From Cohnella rhizosphaerae (GTDB lineage: Bacteria > Bacillota > Bacilli > Paenibacillales > Paenibacillaceae): 64,000 nt of DNA. Position 1 is the stretch's first letter. Each line of letters opens with the position of its first letter. The notes under the pieces are model-generated. The model was not told the DNA's origin. It was given only the letters and a program-made list of their open reading frames with translations, and did no database searches. Shown here piece after piece: positions 7,570 to 53,905 of this stretch. The stretch lies in the NCBI RefSeq assembly GCF_029525575.1, contig NZ_JAPDIA010000001.1, forward strand, positions 186,001 to 250,000, written 5' to 3'. The translations under genes were made by a program, and so were the position numbers.

Positions 7570-9366
7570 TTACTTGCTGGCGGTCGCTTCGGCGCGCATT
7601 TTGACGATCTTCTGCGCCTTGACCGTATCCGCTGCCAAGACGTCCTTCCAGCCGAGGCCTTCGACGTCCTTCTGCATCTTCGTCCACAGCTGGTCGAACT
7701 CGGCCTGGTTTTTCGCGAATACCATCTTCCAGGACGTGTTCTTCACGTAGTCGGAGATCTGGCTGCGCTTGTTTTTGACGTCCGAGGAATCGGTTCCGAG
7801 ACTCGTATTGATATTCGGCACGATATCGATCATTTTGTTTTTCAAATAGTAGTCCGTCGCGTTTTCGGCATTGTACGTCTTTTGCCAGTCCGTCGTCAGC
7901 ACGGTCTTGTTCGCATCGATCGTCGCGCTCCAATAGTTGCTGTTATAGAACTCCTTGGTGTCCGGATCGTACGTGAAGTCGCTCATGATCATCGTATTGA
8001 GCTTGCTTTGTCCGTCCTGATATCCGCCGCCGCCATATTCGTCCGGAACCGGCGTATTTTTCTGGAAGGCGGTCTGGCCGACTTCGGTCAGCTGGAACTT
8101 GCCGTCGGCCGTCTTTTCGTAGTTGAAGCCTTCGAAGCCGTTCACATAATAGCGCAGGCCTTCCGGAGAGACGAGCCAATCCATGAATTCCATGATGCGG
8201 TCCGCGTATTTCGTTTTCGCGCCGATCGCGAACGCTCTTCCGTTGCCGTAGTAGGCGTCGCTGTTTTGAATGAGATGGGTGTCGGCGATCGGAACCGCTA
8301 CGTTGCCGTCCCCGTTTTTGCCGCGCTCGATCGAATTGTAGAAGCCGCGCTGCCAGGAGTACCACAGAAGCAGCACCTGCTTGTTGGTCAGCTTCTCGGC
8401 CACCTTGTTCCAATCTTGCGTTGGCGAATCGGGATCGACAAGCCCCATCTGATTGGCTTTAAAATAAAATTGGAGGATTTTCTTATACATGCTGTTGTCG
8501 TCGATGATCGGCACGATCTCGCCCTTCGCGTTCAACTGGATCGTCGTTGTGCTGTCCGGCTTCTCGTAGCCGTACCAGTTGCTGACCCAACGCACGTTCT
8601 CCATAGCGCCGGTGCCGCCGTCCCAATCCTTCCACAGGGTGATCGGCACGATCGGCTTGCCGTCCGGCGTCTTCGGATACTTCTCCTGCATCTGCTTAAG
8701 CACGTTCAGCAGGTCGTCCAGGTTGTTCAGCTTCGGCGCGCCGACGCCCTTGTAGTAATCCCAAGGCATGATCGGGCTGGAGTAAGGAATCTCTTCGGAG
8801 AACGTCGTCGGCGACGTGTCCGCCTCGAACGTCGGCAGGCCGTAGATCTTGCCTTCCGGATTGACCTTGTCGAAGCCCGCATTGAACGGTTTGAAATGCT
8901 TGTCGACGTATTGGGACAAGTACTTCGTGTTCTTGATCTTGTCCGTCATATCCATGACGAGACCGGCCGGGATCAGCTCTTCCAGCTGGCTGTTGTCGAC
9001 GATGACCAGATCGCCGAGATCGCCCGCCGCCGTGCGGGTCTTGTACAGCTGGTCGCCTGCAACCTGCGGGGCAAGAATATTGAGCGTAATGTTGAATTTG
9101 TCCTTGACGAGCTTGCCGTACCACCCGGTCTGTTCGCCCTGGTAGTTGGCCGCGTTGTCGAATACGGTGATGGTGATCGGCTTGCTGTGATCGATCGCCC
9201 CGGCGGACTGGGATGCGCCCGCACTTGCGCCGGAGCCGGACGGTTCGCCGGACGCCGCGTTATTTTTGGAGCCGTCGCTGCAAGCGGTCAGCGCCGCGGA
9301 CGCCAGGAACAACCCTGCCAACGATACGGCCAACGATTTCTTGGCCCATTTTCTGCTGTCGCTCAT
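7570..9366 (-). CDS. LplA-like extracellular solute-binding lipoprotein
   Basis: 598 residues and intact. Signal peptide (KKSLAVSLAGLFLASAALTAC) with lipobox LTAC, Ser/Gly/Ala-rich linker, then a bacterial solute-binding fold with typical LplA-type motifs such as TPDGKPIVPITLWKDW and FMDWLVSPEGLRYYVNG. Ribosome site GGGGGG lies six bases before the ATG. It lies 46 bases after the LplC-type permease, giving the arrangement permease-permease-binding protein. No ATPase gene is present; CUT1 importers of this class commonly share a distant MsmX/UgpC-type ATPase. Ligand unknown; oligosaccharide is inferred from neighbours. Confidence 0.9.
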   Translation of the reverse strand: MSDSRKWAKKSLAVSLAGLFLASAALTACSDGSKNNAASGEPSGSGASAGASQSAGAIDHSKPITITVFDNAANYQGEQTGWYGKLVKDKFNITLNILAPQVAGDQLYKTRTAAGDLGDLVIVDNSQLEELIPAGLVMDMTDKIKNTKYLSQYVDKHFKPFNAGFDKVNPEGKIYGLPTFEADTSPTTFSEEIPYSSPIMPWDYYKGVGAPKLNNLDDLLNVLKQMQEKYPKTPDGKPIVPITLWKDWDGGTGAMENVRWVSNWYGYEKPDSTTTIQLNAKGEIVPIIDDNSMYKKILQFYFKANQMGLVDPDSPTQDWNKVAEKLTNKQVLLLWYSWQRGFYNSIERGKNGDGNVAVPIADTHLIQNSDAYYGNGRAFAIGAKTKYADRIMEFMDWLVSPEGLRYYVNGFEGFNYEKTADGKFQLTEVGQTAFQKNTPVPDEYGGGGYQDGQSKLNTMIMSDFTYDPDTKEFYNSNYWSATIDANKTVLTTDWQKTYNAENATDYYLKNKMIDIVPNINTSLGTDSSDVKNKRSQISDYVKNTSWKMVFAKNQAEFDQLWTKMQKDVEGLGWKDVLAADTVKAQKIVKMRAEATASK

Positions 9367-9412
9367 TTGAAACCCCCCATTTGATCAAATTATTATAATG
9401 GCGCAAGCGAGG

Positions 9413-10378
9413 TCAGCCCTTTACCGCGCCGATCATAATCCCTTTTACGAAAAACCTTTGGAATATCGGGTATATCAGCAGGATCGGCGCCACGACGATA
9501 ATGGTGACCGTCATCCGGATGGACGTCGTCGTCTGCTTCGTCGAGAGACTGGACATCGCCGTCGAGCCCGCGTTTTGCAGGTTGACCATCGTCGACAAGG
9601 AGCTTGCCTGGTTGATGTAGTTGTACAAAATGAACTGCAGGCTGTAGAGATTGCTGTCGGTCACGAGGAGCAGCGTATCCTGGAAGGAATTCCATTGATC
9701 CACCGCCGCAAAGATGGCGACCGTCGCCAGAATGGGCTTGCAGATCGGCAGCATGATGCGGAAGAAGATGGTCATCGTCCCGGCGCCGTCGATGCTCGCC
9801 GCCTGCTGCAGTTCCTTGGGCGTCGACTCCACGAACGTTTTGACCAGTATGATGAAAAAGGGAGCGACGACCGTCGGCAAAATATAGGCCAAAAAGTTGT
9901 TGGTCAGATGCAGCGACCTCATCGTCAAGTACCAGGGAATGATCCCGGCGCTGAAGAACATCGTGATCACCGTGAAGCGGTACCAAAACTTCCGCGCCCA
10001 CATGTCCTCCTGCGAGAACATGAAGCCCAGGAAGGCGGAGGCGCCTACCGTCAAGCTCGTGCCGATGACCGTTCTGCCCAGCGAGACGAGCGCCGCATGG
10101 CCCAGTCCCGGTATCTTGAACACATCGATGTAATTTTGGAAGTGAATATGCTTCGGGAAAAAGACGACGTCGCCTCTCGCGCTGATATCGTTCGCGCTGA
10201 TCGTGTTGATGATGATCGAGTAAAAGGGATAGACGCAGATCAGCGCGAACAGGGAGAACAGCGTATAGATGACGACGGAGATGAACTTGTCCGTCGCGCT
10301 GAGCTTGTAGCGCGTCTTCTGATCCACCCGGCTTTGACGGACCGGCTCAAGTGCCGGCTCTGCCGCATGCTCGCTCAT
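9413..10378 (-). CDS. LplC/YtcP-type carbohydrate ABC transporter permease
   Basis: About 321 residues, starting at MSEHAAEPALEPVRQ. Six membrane segments are visible (for example FISVVIYTLFSLFALICVY and FWYRFTVITMFFSAGIIP), plus the EAA-type cytoplasmic loop ELQQAASIDGAGTMTIFFRI. The C-terminus FFVKGIMIGAVKG is characteristic of the MalG-side permease. In the raw sequence its frame is continuous with the LplB-type gene upstream, giving an apparent 656-codon fusion. A one-base excess in the G5 run 10389-10393 (coding strand) explains this; without it the two genes overlap by ATGA. Confidence 0.85.
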   Translation of the reverse strand: MSEHAAEPALEPVRQSRVDQKTRYKLSATDKFISVVIYTLFSLFALICVYPFYSIIINTISANDISARGDVVFFPKHIHFQNYIDVFKIPGLGHAALVSLGRTVIGTSLTVGASAFLGFMFSQEDMWARKFWYRFTVITMFFSAGIIPWYLTMRSLHLTNNFLAYILPTVVAPFFIILVKTFVESTPKELQQAASIDGAGTMTIFFRIMLPICKPILATVAIFAAVDQWNSFQDTLLLVTDSNLYSLQFILYNYINQASSLSTMVNLQNAGSTAMSSLSTKQTTTSIRMTVTIIVVAPILLIYPIFQRFFVKGIMIGAVKG

Positions 10379-11290
10379 ACGATGCTCTCCCCCTCTTAGC
10401 ATTTTGGACAGACCGTTCACCGAGAAGAGCAGCACGACGCTGATCAGGCTCTTCAGCATGCTGATCGCGACGGACACGGAGTAGCTGCCCCCGCCCATGG
10501 CCAGGTTGTAGACGTACAGGTCGAGCACCTGAATGCTGTCTTTGTTGAATGCGTTCTGGAAGACGAAGTACTGCTCCAGCCCGTTGTTCAGGAAGCTCGC
10601 GATCTGCAGCATCAGCAGCACGAAGTACGTCGGCAGCATGCTCGGCAGGACGACGTGGCGGATCACCTGCATGCGGGTCGCGCCGTCGACATGGGCCGCC
10701 TCGTACAGGGAATCGTCGATCCCCATGATCGCGGCGATGTACAGAATGGCGGACCAACCTAGCGCTTTCCAGGTTGTCCACATCCACATCGTGATCCATA
10801 CGTGTTCGGAGCTCTGGAGGAACAGGATCGGCGCATCGGTCAGGCCGAGCTGCCGCAGCATGCCGTTAATGACCCCTTCGCTGGAAAACATGGAGAAGGC
10901 GAGCGAGTACACGAGCACCCAGCTGATGAAGTTCGGGAGCGTCGTGACCGTCTGGATGAACTTCCGGAAGCGGACGGCCTTGATCTCGGTGAGGAAGATG
11001 GCGAACACCATCGGCAGCCAGGAGAACAGCAGCGTCAGGCCGCTCATGCCGAACGTGTTCTTGATGACCTGCAGCAGCTGATCGACCTTCACCTCGTTTT
11101 CGACCAGCGATCTGAACCATTGCAGTCCGACGAACGGCGACTTGGACAACGGAATCGGCGGCGTGTAGTCGAAGAAGGCATATACCCACCCGTACAGCGG
11201 GTAGTAGGCGAAGATGAACAGCAGAATCATGAAAGGAGAGATGTAGAGAAATTTCCTGAACGATGTGCTTCTCTTGTTGTAAGTCAGCAT
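10375..11290 (-). CDS. LplB-type carbohydrate ABC transporter permease (stop masked by +1 error)
   Basis: About 305 residues starting MLTYNKRSTSFRKFLYISP, with six membrane helices and the EAA loop SLYEAAHVDGATRMQVIRHVVLPSM typical of LplB permeases. The raw frame reads through into the LplC-type gene. Deleting one G from the G5 run (10389-10393) makes it end in LRGESIV with a TGA overlapping the next ATG, the normal coupling of these pairs. The ATG at 11290 and a GTG at 11296 are both possible starts; AGGAGAG five bases before the GTG favours that codon slightly. The upstream in-frame extension MKAQSRPCR... has no ribosome site and is rejected. Confidence 0.85.
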
Positions 11291-11337
11291 GCGCACGCCG
11301 CCTCTCCTCTTCGATGGGTGTGGGCTTTCGCTTTCAT
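11284..11337 (-). CDS. Possible 17-residue leader peptide upstream of the LplB-type gene
   Basis: A short ORF (MKAKAHTHRRGEAACAC) starts at an ATG with a near-perfect ribosome site (AAGGAG, six bases away). It ends with a TGA that overlaps the LplB start region (ATGCTGA). Its frame differs from LplB and no single-base correction joins them. It could couple translation to LplB or be chance; no homologue is known to me. Confidence 0.3.
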   Translation of the reverse strand: MKAKAHTHRRGEAACAC

Positions 11338-11389
11338 ATCGATCTCCTTCCTTCGTGCGGCACGGCCTTGATTGCGCTTTCATGTTTAC

Positions 11390-11395
11390 ATTATA
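11390..11395 (-). promoter_or_regulatory. -10 element of the LplB/LplC operon promoter
   Basis: Perfect TATAAT on the minus strand (11390-11395), about 50 bases upstream of the leader ORF and 100 bases upstream of LplB. No good -35 is seen 16-18 bases away, suggesting an activator-dependent promoter. A weak cre-like sequence TGTAAGCGCTATAT lies at 11460-11473. Confidence 0.4.
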
Positions 11396-11487
11396 GGCAC
11401 CCCTCGCTGGCTCGAACTACGTGCATCTTTTTTACTTGCTTAACGATCGTTTACTCGTTTGTAAGCGCTATATATTCCATGTGGAAA

Positions 11488-12569
11488 GAACCGCACATTT
11501 TTGTGCGGTTCCGGTGACGCTGGCGCGGCGCGGGCGCGGCGAGGTTACGGCGAGGGCATGATGAAGGCGCGAGCAGCCGCGGCCGGGGGCGATTTGAGCG
11601 AGAACCGCACATTTTTTGTGCGGTTCCGACGGCGCAGGCGAGGCGTGGGCATGATGAAGGCGCGAGTAGTCGCGGCCGGGGGCGATACGTGCGAGAACCG
11701 CACATTTTTTTGTGCGGTTCCGGTGTCGCGGGCGCGGCGTGGGCATGATGAAGGCGCGAGTAGTCGCGGCCGGGGGCTATTCGGGCGAGAACCGCACATT
11801 TTTTTGTGCGGTTCCGGTGTCGCGGGCGTGACGCGGGCGCGGCGAGGGCACGATTGAGGCGCGAGTGGCCGCGGCCGGGGGCGATACGTGCGAGAACCGC
11901 ACATTTTTTGTGCGGTTCCGGTGTCGCGGGCGCGGCGTGTGCGCGGCGAAGGCACGGCGAGGTTACGGCGAGGGCACGATGAAGGCGCGAGCGGCCGCGG
12001 CCGGGGGCGATACGTGCGAGAACCGCACATTTTTTGTGCGGTTCCGGTGTCGCAGGCGTGGTGTGTGTGCGGCGAGGGCACGATTAAGGCGCGAGGTGGC
12101 CGCGGCCGGGGGCGATTTGGGCGAGAACCGCACATTTTTTGTGCGGTTCCGGTGTCGCGGGCGTGACGCGAGCGCTGCGAGGGCACGATTAAGGCGCGAG
12201 CGGCCGCGGCCGGGGGGCGATTCGGGCGAGAACCGCACATTTTTTGTGCGGTTCCGGTATCGCGGGCGTGACGCGGGCGCGGCGTGGGCATGATGAAGGC
12301 GCGAGTAGTCGCGGCCGGGGGGCGATTTGGGCGAGAACCGCACATTTTTTGTGCGGTTCCGGTGTCGCGGGCGTGACGCGAGCGCGGCGAGGGCACGATT
12401 ACGGCGCGAGTGGCCGCGGCCGGGGGCGATACGTGCGAGAACCGCACATTTTTTTGTGCGGTTCCGGCGGCGCGGGCGTGACGCGGGCGCGGCGAGGGCA
12501 CGATTAAGGCGCGAGTGGCCGCGGCCGGGGGCGATACGTGCGAGAACCGCACATTTTTTTGTGCGGTTC
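11488..12569. repeat. Tandem array of 11 identical hairpins with spacers of 11-base modules
   Basis: Eleven copies of the inverted repeat GAACCGCACA / TGTGCGGTTC (10-base perfect stem, loop of 4-6 T) begin at 11488, 11602, 11695, 11789, 11894, 12020, 12125, 12230, 12335, 12439 and 12544. Start-to-start distances are 114, 93, 94, 105, 126, 105, 105, 105, 104 and 105. The GC-rich spacers are built from degenerate 11-base modules (for example GCGCGGCGAAG, GCACGGCGAGG, TTACGGCGAGG, GCACGATGAAG). Each spacer ends in a conserved CGCGGCCGGGGGCGAT block before the next hairpin. The array fills the gap between the GH31 terminator and the LplB promoter. There is no T tract after the stems on either strand, so they are not ordinary terminators. 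Confidence 0.95.
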
Positions 12570-12627
12570 CGGTGGCGCGGGCACGGTTGCGGGGCGGTGA
12601 GGATGTGAGGGCGACGCGTAGAAAAGC

Positions 12628-12655
12628 GAAAAACGACCCCGCAAGGTCGTTTTTC
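12628..12655 (-). terminator. Rho-independent terminator of the GH31 operon
   Basis: Perfect 11-base stem GAAAAACGACC / GGTCGTTTTTC with a six-base loop, starting just after the GH31 stop codon (12660). The A-rich and T-rich arms make it usable on both strands. Confidence 0.8.
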
Positions 12656-12659
12656 ATGT

Positions 12660-15099
12660 TTAAAAAATCGCTTCCGCCCGACTTCCCGTATAGCGGAGCG
12701 TTCGAACGGCAGGCGCAGGCGGGAGATCGGGCTCCAAGGCCGGCTCGAAGAGCTGAACGACGATCTCGCGGACGGCCAGCATCCCGGGATAAGCGCCTCT
12801 TCTCTCCCCGATCGTCAACGTCCTGCTCCCCTCGTCCCATTGCAGCGGCGTAATCGCAAATACACCCTTTTCGTAATCGTAGCTGTCCCCTTCGTCTTCA
12901 TACAGCTCGAACGATCCGCTCCGGCCCGCGTATACGCGAACGTACAGCCTGCCGCCGAATGTGTCGTCCTCGGCATGCTGAATCTCGTCGCCCATCGGCA
13001 CGATCGAGCCTGCGCGGACGTACAGCGGAATTCGGGCGATCGGCGCCGCCGCCTCGATCAACGCTCCGCCCTCGTAGGACGTACCGTCCCAGAAATCGTA
13101 CCACAGGCTCCCGCTCGGCAAGTACACGGACCGGGTCTCGCTTCGATCCTCCAGCGGCCGCGATCCACTGTCGTAGTACATCGGCTCGGTGACGGGGTTC
13201 ACCAGCAGCGCCGGACCGAACATGTATTGATCGCCGATGTCGTACACGCGGGCATCGTGCCTGAAATCGAACGGCAGCGCGCGCATCAGCGTATAATCGT
13301 CCCGGTAGACGCGGAAGGCCAGCGAATAGATATAAGGAAGCAAGCGGTAACGAAGAGACAAAAACGTAGCCAGCGCCTCGTAGAACGGCTCGCCCGGTTC
13401 CCCGAACCGCCAGATCTCGCGGGGCGTGTCCGTGCCGTGGGAGCGGAACATCGGCAGAAACGTGCCGTACTGGAACCAGCGCACGTACAATTCGCGGTAG
13501 CCCAGATCGTCCACGCCCTCGTCGTAATCCCCGCTCCAAAACCACTGGTCGGGCTTGTCGCGGACGAAAAAGCCGCCGATATCGAGCGTCCAGTAGGGCG
13601 AGCCCGTCGCGCAGAAGTTAAGCCCGTCGGGAATTTGCTTGCGCAGGGTGTCCCAGTTCGCCGAGATGTCGCCCGACCAGGTGATCGTCCCGTAACGGTG
13701 CTGTCCGGCATAAGCGGACCGGGTCAGATTGACGACGCGCTTGCGCTCGTTCGTTCGGCGCTGACCCTCGTAGATGCCGCGGGAATGCAGCAGCGAGTAG
13801 GCGTTGATGAACTGCGGATCGATATAAAGCTTGGCCTCGTCGGTATTGATGCGCAAGCGCTCCTCAGGCTCAGGTCTGACGGCCCCCTTCCAGTCCGCTT
13901 CGAAGGGCTCGGTGCAGTCGCACCACCACGCATCGATGCCGTGGACGAACAGGCCTTCGTTCGCTTGCTTCCAATAAAGCGCACGGGCTTTATCCTGAAA
14001 GGCGTCGTACGTCGCCCGGTTTGCGAGCAGCCCGCCTTGCTCGGTCATCTCCCGATGATTGTCGCTGTCCGGATTCATGATGGGCCAGATCGACACCATC
14101 AGCCGTGCGTTCATGCCGTGAAGCGCCTCCATCATTTTCCCCGGATCGGGGAACCGCTCCGGATCGAGCGTCTTCTGTCCCCACAGCTCGCCGGTCCACG
14201 ACTTCCAATCCAGCACGATGCAGTCGAGAGGCAGGCCCCGCGCGCGATACTCGCGCACCGTCTCGATCAACTCCGCCGAAGATGTGTAGCGCTCCTTCGA
14301 CTGCACGTAGCCGTAAGCCCACTTCGGCAGCATCGGCGCCTTGCCCGTCAAATAACGGATGCCGCGAACGACCTCGTCCAGCTCCGGACCAGCTACAAAG
14401 TAGTAGTCCATCTCCGCGTCCGCCTCGGTGGACAGATAGGAGCCGAACGCATCGTCGTGAAACATCATGAAGGCGTAGCTGTCCGCCACGATGCCGTAGC
14501 CGCGCGTCGATACGAGCACGGGAACGACGGCTTTCATATTTTGCTGGTACAAATACTGATGCTGGCCGCGCAGGTTGTACATGCCCTCTTCATGCGAGCC
14601 CAATCCGTACAACGCTTCGTCGTCCGCCCAATCGAACGCGAGCTTCGTGCGATAGGCCTGTCGGTCTACCTCTGTTCGCACCTGCGACGCGCGGATCCGC
14701 AGACCGTCCGCCCCCCTGACCGGTCTCCAGCCTGGCGTCTTCGTCGAAGACGGCTCTGACGACGTCGACCGGCACGAGCGACTTGCCGCCGCGCGCCGGC
14801 TCCTGCGCCAGCAAAGTCCCTGCCGCGTCGCGGTAGACGAAGGCGCCGGTCCGCTTGTCGATCTGGATCGCAAGGCTTGAGGTCGAGAAATAAAGCCGAC
14901 GCTCGTCCTCCTCGACCGTGTAAGGCACGGCGCCGTCCGCCTCGCGAACGATCATAAAGCTCCGTCCGGCGCCGAACGTCGGCTCCAGCGTATATTGAAC
15001 CCGGATCGTGCCGCTTGCGTAAGGCGTGAGCTTCATCCTGCCGTTCGACGTCTCGAGCACGAGTCCGTCGGGCCGCGCCTCATAACGCCGAATATTCAT
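12660..15099 (-). CDS. GH31 alpha-glycosidase (alpha-glucosidase/alpha-xylosidase; one +1 frame error)
   Basis: Glycoside hydrolase family 31, 812 residues after removing one base from the G6 run 14711-14716 (coding strand), which joins DARLETGQ to GADGLRIRASQ. N-terminal beta-sandwich, then the (beta/alpha)8 barrel with the catalytic nucleophile Asp in HGIDAWWCDCTEP (about residue 394) and acid/base Asp in YGTITWSGDISANW. Also GLPLDCIVLDWKSW and FRSHGTDTPREIWRFG, both typical of the family. C-terminal beta domains follow. No signal peptide, so cytoplasmic. It is the last gene of a solute-binding protein-MalF-MalG-GH31 operon and should cleave terminal alpha-glucosyl or alpha-xylosyl units of the imported sugar. 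The exact specificity cannot be read from sequence alone. Confidence 0.9.
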
Positions 15100-15143
15100 C
15101 GTATCCCCCCGTTATCCGCTCTTTTTTTTACCGCCGCGCGCTA

Positions 15144-15965
15144 TTAGCCCTTGACCGCCCCGGAAGTCATCCCCGCGATAATAAACCGCTGGCCCAGCAA
15201 ATAAACGATCAACACCGGCAATATCGTTAAAATAATGTCCGCGCTCACCAGATTCCAGGACTGCTGGAACTGCCCGAAGAAGTTGTACACCGCCAGCGTC
15301 ATCGGCCACTTCTGAGCGCTGTTCAAATAATAGAGCGGCAGCAGAAATTCGTTCCAGGTGTTAAGGAAAGCCAAAATAAACACGGTAACAGCGGCCGGCC
15401 GCAGCACCGGAAATATAACCTTGAAAAACAGCCGCACCGGCCCGCAGCCGTCGATGACGCCCGCCTCGTCGAGCTCCTTCGGCACGCCGCCGACGAAGCC
15501 GAACAAAATAAAAATGCTGAACGGAATCTGCGTAACCATGTACAAAACGACGATGCCGGCCCGCGTATTCATTAAATGCGTCCACTTCATGACATCGATC
15601 AGGGTGAAGTAGTTAAGCGGCAGCGCGATGCCCAGGATGATAAAGAAATAAAGCACGCGGTTCAGGCGGGAACGGTTCCGCGAAAGCGCGAAGGCCGCCA
15701 TCGCCGAAAAGAGGATGCAAAATATCGCGGCAAACCCCGAATAGGCGAAGCTGTTCAAAAACGAACGGCCCAGCTTGCCTTTCTCGACGACCGTCGCAAA
15801 ATTGTCGAAGCGCAACGAACGGGGAAGCGCAAAGCTCATCGAGCTGGCTTCGGCTCCCGTCTTGAAAGCATTGATGACGATGAGCAGAATCGGAATGAGC
15901 GCGATCAGGCTGACCGCGCCGATCGCGACGTTGGCAACCGCGGCCTGCAGCCTTTTACTTTTCAT
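15144..15965 (-). CDS. MalG-type carbohydrate ABC transporter permease
   Basis: 273 residues and intact. Six transmembrane helices starting with AVANVAIGAVSLIALIPILL. EAA loop ELDEAGVIDGCGPVRLFFKV, followed by FLNTWNEFLLPLYYL, the usual CUT1 signature. C-terminus IAGMTSGAVKG. It begins immediately after the MalF stop and precedes GH31 by 44 bases, so it is operonic. Forms the heterodimeric membrane channel with the preceding permease. Confidence 0.92.
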   Translation of the reverse strand: MKSKRLQAAVANVAIGAVSLIALIPILLIVINAFKTGAEASSMSFALPRSLRFDNFATVVEKGKLGRSFLNSFAYSGFAAIFCILFSAMAAFALSRNRSRLNRVLYFFIILGIALPLNYFTLIDVMKWTHLMNTRAGIVVLYMVTQIPFSIFILFGFVGGVPKELDEAGVIDGCGPVRLFFKVIFPVLRPAAVTVFILAFLNTWNEFLLPLYYLNSAQKWPMTLAVYNFFGQFQQSWNLVSADIILTILPVLIVYLLGQRFIIAGMTSGAVKG

Positions 15966-15966
15966 A

Positions 15967-16838
15967 TCAGCCTTGTTCCTCTCTGGACATAAGCTTGACG
16001 GCGAAAAATCCCATGAGGGTCATAATGACGAACAGAACGGTGATCAAGGCCGTGCCGACGCCATAGCTCCCGAGAGAAAACTGGCTGAACACCTGCGTAT
16101 ACACCACATCGGTCGCATAGCCCGGTCCGCCGTTCGTGAGGACGTACACCGTATCGAATATTTTCAGACCGTACAGCAGGTTGAGCACCGTCGTGACGGT
16201 CAGCGAAGGCATCAAGAGCGGTAGCGTGATATACCGAAGCTTCTTCCAGAAGCCGGCGCCGTCGATATCCGCCGCCTCGTAATAAGAGGAAGAGATCGCC
16301 TGCAGGCCGGCCAGCAAGATGACCATGATATAACCCGCGCCTTTCCAGACGTCGACCGCGATGACCGATTTGAAAGCCCACCTGACGTCCGACAACCAGT
16401 GCTGCGTCCATGACGATAGACCGATCGCCCTCAGCGCTTCGTTGATCAGGCCGTGCTGGGGCTCGTAGATCGACTTGAAAATGATGCCCACCACCAGCAT
16501 CGGGATGACCGAAGGCATAAAAAAGAACGACGCGGTGAAAGCTTTTCAGCCGAATGCCCCGGTTGACCATCAGCGCAAGCAGCAAACCGATGATCGTCTT
16601 GAGCACGATCGTGGCGACCGTAAAGACCGCCGTATTGCGGATGCCGTGCATATAATTCTCGTCGGACGAGAAGATCGTCCTGTAATTGTCGAGGCCGATG
16701 AAGCGAATCGCCTTGGCGTAGCTGTTCCAGTCCGTAAACGATAAATAGATGCCCATCAGGCTCGGAACGACGGCAAACGCGACGTAAAAGACCAAGGCGA
16801 TCGCAATGAAATAAAAAAGGATACATTCGTTTGCTCAT
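15967..16838 (-). CDS. MalF-type carbohydrate ABC transporter permease (two +1 frame errors)
   Basis: 289 residues after correction. Two T6 runs on the coding strand (16813-16818 and 16519-16524) each contain one extra base. With five T each, the protein reads MSKRMYPFYFIAIALVFYVAF and later FHRVVLFMPSVIPMLVVG. Six transmembrane helices and the EAA loop YYEAADIDGAGFWKKLRYITLP mark the MalF side of a CUT1 importer. Corrected length is divisible by three. GGGG lies eight bases before the ATG. Located between the solute-binding protein and MalG genes. Confidence 0.88.
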
Positions 16839-48352: not shown

Positions 48353-48380
48353 GAAAATAGCGCAGATCTGCGCTATTTTC
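48353..48380. repeat. 28-base perfect palindrome; a second copy is split by the insertion sequence
   Basis: GAAAATAGCGCAGA followed by its exact complement TCTGCGCTATTTTC. The left half of a second copy (CATGCGAAAATAGCGCAGATCT, from 47027) and a decayed right half (AGATTTGCGCTATTCTCAC, from 48292) flank the insertion sequence. Without the element the copies would lie about 72-78 bases apart. The intact copy lies 40 bases after the anti-sigma gene and may end its transcript. Confidence 0.85.
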
Positions 48381-53594: not shown

Positions 53595-53657
53595 TTCTCG
53601 CATAATTCGCTTGTCCGTTCTGCGCAACAAATGACAACCAGGTCTTCATGGTGCTGG

Positions 53658-53905
53658 ATGGGAAAAAAGTTACTCTACAGGCTTGCGAGACGGTCCAAAT
53701 GGTGCTACAGAGGAGAAAAGTTACTTTACAGGCTCGCGGGACGGTCAAAATGACGCTGTAGAGGAAAAAAGTTACTCTACAGCTTGCGAGACGGTCCAAA
53801 TGGTGCTGCAGAGGAGAAAAGTTACTCTACAGGCTCGCGAGACAGTCAAATGACGCTGTAGAGGAAAAAAGTTACTCTATAGGCTCGCGGGACGATCTGC
53901 AGGGT
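53658..53905. repeat. Tandem array of about five 50-51 base units containing hairpins
   Basis: GTTACTCTACAG (or near variants) recurs at 53669, 53720, 53771, 53821 and 53871, that is every 51, 51, 50 and 50 bases. Between units, CTGTAGAG / CTCTACAG form eight-base stems around the loop GAAAAAAGTTA. Two unit types alternate (GCTTGCGAGACGGTCCAAAT and GCTCGCGGGACGGTCAAAAT). It occupies the gap between the convergent AraC and second GH78 genes (53595-53963), which holds nothing else except the terminator next to it. Confidence 0.9.

Follow-up and report, generated by a model that had tools for sequence, protein, structure and literature searches.

The intergenic gap considered here carries one hairpin in eleven tandem copies, which raises the question of what kind of element this array is, and what sets the distance from one hairpin to the next. 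The array lies in a stretch of 64,000 nucleotides of the Cohnella rhizosphaerae genome, called the window throughout. It appears to be a hairpin-bearing, helix-phased variant of satellites, and it probably acts on double-stranded DNA.

The hairpin array and its setting

Each hairpin consists of GAACCGCACA, a loop of N4 to N6, and TGTGCGGTTC. The 10-bp stem is perfect in 11 of 11 copies, as a preliminary description of this DNA had stated, and all copies read in one orientation (Table 1). A search for the stem with up to three mismatches gave 30 forward and 36 reverse matches, some places being scored on both strands. The reversed control pattern gave 0, which excludes a chance origin of the hairpin.

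Table 1. Coordinates of the hairpin array and of the features flanking it in the window
Feature	Coordinates	Strand	Remarks
Hairpin array, 11 copies	11488..12569	.	Perfect 10-bp stem in every copy
Copy starts of the array	11488, 11602, 11695, 11789, 11894, 12020, 12125, 12230, 12335, 12439, 12544		
First hairpin	11488..11511	.	GAACCGCACA-TTTT-TGTGCGGTTC; site of the single intact hairpin in L241 (C. ginsengisoli) and L272 (GbtcB17)
First spacer	11512..11601	.	GC-rich (G-rich on + strand); unit 114 bp
Longest spacer	11919..12019	.	Unit 126 bp; 11-base modules gaaggcacggc / gaggttacggc / gagggcacgat, by eye
Last hairpin	12544..12569	.	
ABC-transporter permease ORF	9413..11383	-	Gene downstream of the array
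Bidirectional terminator-like hairpin	12627..12656	.	Between the GH31 gene (- strand) and the array
GH31 glycosidase, main ORF	12660..14873	-	Gene upstream of the array, which lies past its 3' end

The raw start-to-start spacings are 114, 93, 94, 105, 126, 105, 105, 105, 104 and 105. The T runs of the loops range from T5 to T7, and when the spacings are normalised by eye for these runs and for one extra G in three spacers, the unit lengths become 93, 104, 115 and 126. The proposed unit rule of 82+11n holds once this correction is made. Five of the eleven units (window 11689-11703 and four further units) also contain a short alternative hairpin, GTGCGAGAACCGCAC, with a T run directly after it; this hairpin and the main one are mutually exclusive.

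Gene calls throughout come from a script made for the purpose and are approximate. By these calls the array falls in an intergenic gap with a coding fraction of 0, which agrees with the lack of a coding role described earlier and rules out a coding repeat. A CRISPR is also ruled out, because the spacers are not unique: they visibly repeat, as had been noted, and mean identity is 0.79-0.95 within the five arrays measured in the C. rhizosphaerae genome. The array had further been placed between an operon terminator and an inducible promoter, with no terminator T tract of its own. The terminator is represented by the bidirectional terminator-like hairpin of Table 1. The promoter found no counterpart, as sigma-70-like sites, the one promoter type scanned, number 0 at 11200-12800. 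The lack of a T tract holds on the + strand, but on the - strand the sequence CTTTCC comes after the first hairpin. The GH31 gene is broken into two ORFs (window 12660-15099) and two permeases are apparently fused (9413-11383), both of which are likely run-length errors of the assembly.

Distribution, orthologous sites and single copies

The preliminary description proposed a search for the hairpin in this and related genomes, and the search was positive in both. The C. rhizosphaerae genome (8.5 Mb) contains nine hairpin arrays, each of 4 to 11 copies and together spread over four contigs, in addition to two near-matching single copies. The hairpin is present in 6 of 37 Cohnella genomes and in none of the 23 Paenibacillales genomes that belong to other families. 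The carriers include C. rhizosphaerae (G000), Cohnella ginsengisoli DSM 18997 (G012), Cohnella sp. GbtcB17 (G005), JJ-181 (G018), OV330 (G036) and G013. Among the 80 stretches listed in a scan of named genomes, at least three have more than one copy, and all three are from Cohnella. Pairwise comparison of the spacers shows relatedness between 25 of the 36 pairs of arrays (z at least 3, either orientation, mononucleotide shuffles), so the nine arrays are not independent of one another.

Once the arrays had been masked, eight of the nine had flanks that match hairpin-bearing stretches in one to four relatives; those of the ninth, L015, match none. A further stretch, L242, was left out because its likeness to L010 is limited to one gene. 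One intact hairpin copy occupies the site of the window array in each of C. ginsengisoli and GbtcB17. The first bases of the same spacer are kept in C. ginsengisoli, and in GbtcB17 the remnant of a second arm follows 49 bp further along. Since the relatives have one intact copy here, the window copy number of 11 rests on one assembly. At another site there are seven copies at 83 bp in C. rhizosphaerae and three at 83 bp in GbtcB17, while the spacings in OV330 are 83, 82 and then 53 bp. Arrays of 72-73 bp share a site in C. rhizosphaerae, OV330 and GbtcB17, and arrays of 93-94 bp share a site either in C. rhizosphaerae and GbtcB17 or in C. rhizosphaerae and OV330. This same-site comparison indicates that the sites are old, that copy number depends on the species, and that unit length agrees where two species have arrays.

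The single copies differ from the arrayed ones in the bases that follow the hairpin. The nine bases after it contain a mean of 4.43 T in 21 single copies, as against 2.35 in 69 inner array copies and 2.78 at 2000 random intergenic positions (p 2e-7 for single copies versus these control positions, and 3e-8 versus inner copies). Hairpin matches with more than two mismatches and no neighbour are excluded from these counts, and two of the 21 single copies have only 2 T of 9. On the - strand, the orthologous single copies at the window site are followed by CTTTGCTTT / CTTTCCTTT. With their GC-rich stem and a T-rich tail on one strand, the single copies mostly resemble intrinsic terminators. The inner array copies lack this tail, and with a T content below that of the control they do not qualify as intrinsic terminators. 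The growth of the arrays seems to have gone with loss of the T-rich tail.

Spacing and helical phase

Across six genomes, 89 spacings of the main hairpin were collected. They fall at 72-73 (7 cases), 82-84 (18), 91-96 (53) and 104-105 bp (6), with one each at 114 and 126 bp and outliers of 39, 53 and 58 bp. The clusters thus lie at ~72, 83, 93 and 104 bp, and the two longest values are confined to the window. Units of 57/58 bp (L011), 91 bp (L010) and 91-92 bp (an OV330 array) are off phase. A second hairpin word, AATAGCGC in five relatives and ATAGCGC in the C. rhizosphaerae genome, yields 101 spacings at 27 of its 45 places, 89 of them single units. These measure 72-73 bp in 77 cases, 81-83 bp in seven, all from one JJ-181 array of eight copies, and 63 bp in one, from a JJ-181 place where the next gap is 186 bp; the remaining values are 69, 70, 71 and 53 bp. 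Here the spacings of 53 and 69 bp are off phase, and a gap of 134 bp falls on no rung of the ladder. For the TGCACA/GTGCAC words 25 of 27 spacings are 61-63 bp and the other two are 124 and 125 bp. L269 and two unpaired GTGCAC places of the C. rhizosphaerae genome were left out of the counts.

Other satellites were collected with TRF and the script-made gene caller from 1.26 Mb of C. rhizosphaerae and from samples of G013, G006, G001 and G049, after arrays with fewer than 2.5 copies or at least 30% coding overlap had been dropped. These samples of five genomes contain 86 non-coding arrays. Of these, 56 have units of 40-135 bp and form 36 families, and 29 have units of 15-36 bp, which are outside the phase tests. 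The unit is 50-52 bp in 28 of the 36 families, and the remaining families are at 62, 63, 72, 73 and 105 bp, with exceptions at 46 (G013), 78 (C. rhizosphaerae) and 81 bp (G049). In arrays called coding the period is divisible by three in 65 of 67, although eight 51-bp arrays and a few near 306 bp that were called coding may be mis-called satellites. Loci surveyed in relatives contain further arrays of 51, 52, 62 and 72 bp, as well as one of 43 bp that is 28% coding, one of 39 bp that is 15% coding, and units of 31 and 26 bp.

Palindromes are clear (at most one of 60 shuffles as good) in 15 of 57 arrays with units of at least 40 bp, compared to 3 of 108 control segments, and hairpins are therefore unnecessary for the 51/52 class. 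All seven Cohnella arrays sampled with units of 62-73 bp have perfect stems of 8-11 bp, as does the window array; the 78-bp array of C. rhizosphaerae has no such stem. A palindromic array of G049, which belongs to another family, has the 81-bp unit. The window itself carries a second satellite between convergent genes (53648-53894), with 51-bp units of the form CTGTAGAG...CTCTACAG; it is one of eight arrays of its family in the sampled part of the C. rhizosphaerae genome. A single palindrome, ATAGCGCAGATCTGCGCTAT, is found at window 48357-48376, and the same word makes 72-bp arrays elsewhere in the genome and the genus.

The unit lengths of the hairpin words cluster close to whole helical turns, from 5 to 12 of them at ~10.45 bp each. 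The period obtained by fitting matches B-DNA and the offset is ~1 base, so that unit length itself is close to whole turns. The first and unselected test, on seven family values outside 50-52 bp and the main word, a number too small to reach significance, gave p 0.48 with the period T free and 0.54 with T at 10.5, and adding four classes of the main word lowered these to 0.07 and 0.03. The test by word and length became strong only after further hairpin words had been mapped. Nine such classes (51, 52, 62, 72, 83, 72, 83, 93 and 104) give R 0.980 at T 10.5 and p 1e-5 against a null of uniform lengths from 45 to 110; with one length per word (five values) p is 0.002, and with a tenth class, made of one 63-bp spacing and the 186-bp gap, it is 5e-6. 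The exceptions at 46 and 78 bp, Cohnella units of at least 40 bp with no strong palindrome, reduce the nine-class result to R 0.624 and p 0.03 and the ten-class result to p 0.013. G049 (63 and 81 bp) was left out of the class tests, and restoring the 81 in one run gave p 0.02. Because the classes were chosen after the data had been seen, the p values of these class tests serve as a guide only. For the main hairpin alone, eleven site values give R 0.94 and p 5e-5, the sites not being independent. Similar rungs recur in different hairpin words, which supports the helical-face phasing proposed for the window array, but there are exceptions and the testing was done after the fact. One family that runs against the whole-turn rule is the 46-bp satellite of G013 (C1:1342570 and C1:1370434), which lacks a clear palindrome.

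Origin and possible function

It is likely that the window array is a satellite whose unit is constrained in phase. The fuller reading, in which such a satellite derives from a terminator and serves as a DNA-level element at gene ends, is the best explanation at hand and is put forward tentatively. In this reading, a hairpin resembling an intrinsic terminator and placed at a gene's 3' end would have grown into a non-coding satellite array. The helical phase of double-stranded DNA would act as the constraint, so that palindromes or cruciforms would face the same side. The arrays would then most likely serve, at gene ends, as elements that offer several docking sites or affect topology, similar to BIME-2, with gyrase or a nucleoid protein as candidate partner.

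The placement of satellites relative to genes was compared in the C. rhizosphaerae genome with a background of 692 gaps of at least 60 bp, array gaps included and arrays that share a gap counted separately. Gaps between convergent genes hold 14 of 42 arrays and make up 111 of the 692 gaps (p 0.009). Gaps between divergent genes hold one of 42 arrays, compared to 134 of 692 gaps (p 0.003), and arrays between tandem genes are closer to the upstream 3' end in 19 of 27 cases (p 0.05). Among the nine hairpin arrays none of nine is divergent and three are convergent. The arrays have no common orientation to the neighbouring genes: of six tandem sites, three have a positive and three a negative GC skew in the direction of the genes, and both orientations occur in the CTGTAGAG family. 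The preliminary description had suggested insulation of supercoils, a bound protein or a structured RNA as roles. The mixed orientation favours the first two, which are DNA-level roles or mechanisms, over a structured RNA. A DNA-level function at gene ends, considered by itself, is possible.

BIME-2 arrays of E. coli are strong, transcription-independent gyrase sites, as described in the accessible part of PMC6379681. The window array is like BIME-2/REP in being an intergenic array of palindromes and possibly a gyrase docking site, and it may resemble the gyrase-bound arrays in function by analogy. It differs in that RAYT is absent in five of six carriers, the copies have one orientation, the stem is perfect, and the spacers are long and alike. 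One end of a REP bears a GTAG or CGTC tag. A likeness by description also exists to the STAR elements of staphylococci, which are interspersed intergenic direct repeats (PMC3532100, accessible part).

The foremost alternative is that the phase is made by a duplication mechanism and has no function. Units would be duplicated or lost by way of small DNA loops or circles, which would close well only at whole turns, and the arrays would be selfish or neutral satellites spread by recombination over the hairpin. The relatedness of spacers at different old sites resembles a dispersal of units between hairpins, and constant length is also found in families without clear palindromes. In four of seven orthologous pairs (L009/L257, L009/L267, L010/L265 and L014/L266) spacers are closer within both arrays than between the species, but the other three (L011/L258, L012/L262 and L251/L261) show no within-array excess of identity. 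The scarcity of arrays between divergent genes does not decide the matter, as it fits plain purifying selection at promoters. This alternative is considered unlikely, although it is the strongest of the rivals to a phase-constrained element acting on DNA.

A second alternative derives the ladder from changes in the copy number of a sub-repeat of 10 to 11 bases, with helical phase as a by-product. The preliminary description had seen 11-base modules in the spacers. Self-similarity at lag 11, measured in the window array on another spacer than the longest one (11919..12019), has z 3.1, and L013 has z 2.5; the modules are thus present in these two, but the other seven hairpin arrays range from -1.6 to 1.4 and carry no signal at lag 10 or 11. 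Pooling the nine arrays gives z 1.8 at lag 11 and -2.2 at lag 10. The consensus units of 40 other C. rhizosphaerae arrays give z 5.0 at lag 10 and 2.2 at lag 11 (mononucleotide shuffles, related arrays counted separately). Given these signals, slippage of a sub-repeat could make part of the ladder, and the steps of the main hairpin family are closer to 11 than to 10.5. However, different words fall on shared rungs and have almost identical offsets, and a 10-base periodicity within units can equally signal helical phase. As an account of the whole ladder, sub-repeat change is improbable.

Still somewhat less probable is that the arrays are tandem back-up terminators or a repetitive structured RNA. 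The terminator-like single orthologous copies and the location of arrays at gene 3' ends are consistent with this, and one stretch of 271 nt has a better fold than its 200 shuffles (z -4.55). The 52-nt satellites of B. coagulans are transcribed, according to the accessible part of PMC8625621. However, the inner hairpins have no T-rich tail, orientation to transcription is mixed, and an RNA needs no spacing by helical turns. In window 8000-16000 no covariance model of Rfam 15 gives a match at E up to 1, so a described Rfam RNA is rejected for the window array. At the gathering score one match, a c-di-GMP-I-GGC riboswitch (L171:3393-3473), is present in 140 kb with other arrays.

An expansion produced by the assembly is very improbable: broken ORFs and variable homopolymer runs do occur, as in long-read-only assemblies, but separately assembled genomes have arrays of equal unit length at the same sites (83 bp in three, 72-73 in three, 93-94 in pairs), by which a pure artefact is rejected. 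The least probable reading is a mobile palindrome of the REP/RAYT kind or a DNA-uptake sequence: the array is an extragenic palindrome in tandem and the Haemophilus uptake word includes GTGCGGT, but the Y1 transposase PF01797 is absent from five of six carriers (G000, G005, G012, G018 and G036, with one in G013), and the half-site shows no enrichment as an unpaired word, with 2 occurrences versus an expected 1.2 in the 1.26 Mb examined of the 8.5-Mb genome.

The preferred reading, a satellite with a phase-constrained unit, invites comparison with the constant-length 52-nt non-coding satellites of Bacillus and Paenibacillus/Firmicutes (PMC8161180, Subirana and Messeguer 2021), which are also treated in PMC6749651. 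According to the accessible parts of PMC8161180, the only lengths besides coding repeats are 20-21 and 52 nt. The shorter one is equated there with two helical turns, and the longer has 'no obvious explanation', a polymerising nucleoid protein or small RNAs being proposed for it. Those parts hold no remark on helical turns for 52 nt, and the J. Bacteriol. 2020 paper could contain one. As far as these sources describe it, the 52-nt class shares several traits with the Cohnella satellites: they are non-coding and many per genome, with several families per species, unit length appears constant across unrelated sequences, short words often occur with their reverse in one repeat, and conservation between strains is partial. 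By the same accounts the Cohnella satellites differ in that units also occur at 62, 72, 83, 93 and 104 bp, and in the perfect 8-11 bp stems of the sampled 62-73 bp arrays and the window array. The window array is a non-coding tandem repeat, but its units of 93-126 bp are outside 51-53 nt. Since it departs in length and shares the other traits, it is a longer-unit, hairpin-bearing variant and not a member of the 52-nt class. As to a single length in unrelated families of one genome, rungs are common to different words, but there are exceptions and the unselected test was non-significant.

More speculatively, the non-coding satellites of Firmicutes may be quantised in whole helix turns whatever their sequence, from 5 to 12 in Cohnella, with the '52-nt' class as the five-turn rung. 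Length would then be set by a process at the DNA level, either a one-face scaffold at gene 3' ends or circles of one unit closing at whole turns. Phase, not length, may be the quantity conserved in bacterial satellites of constant length, and a ladder near whole turns makes the question of that constant length concretely and cheaply testable. If true, this would indicate either that a group of soil bacteria has a new kind of element, acting at the DNA level at gene ends, or that duplication passes through a helical gate.

Arrays with longer units are also found in the C. rhizosphaerae genome. L185 (C8:746869-748045) has units of 237 bp with internal matches that repeat at distances of 51 and 186 bp, and an array at C5:54469-55431 has units of 312 bp. 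A third, at C5:314823-315844 and partly called coding, has units of 305 bp, or ~6x 51 bp.
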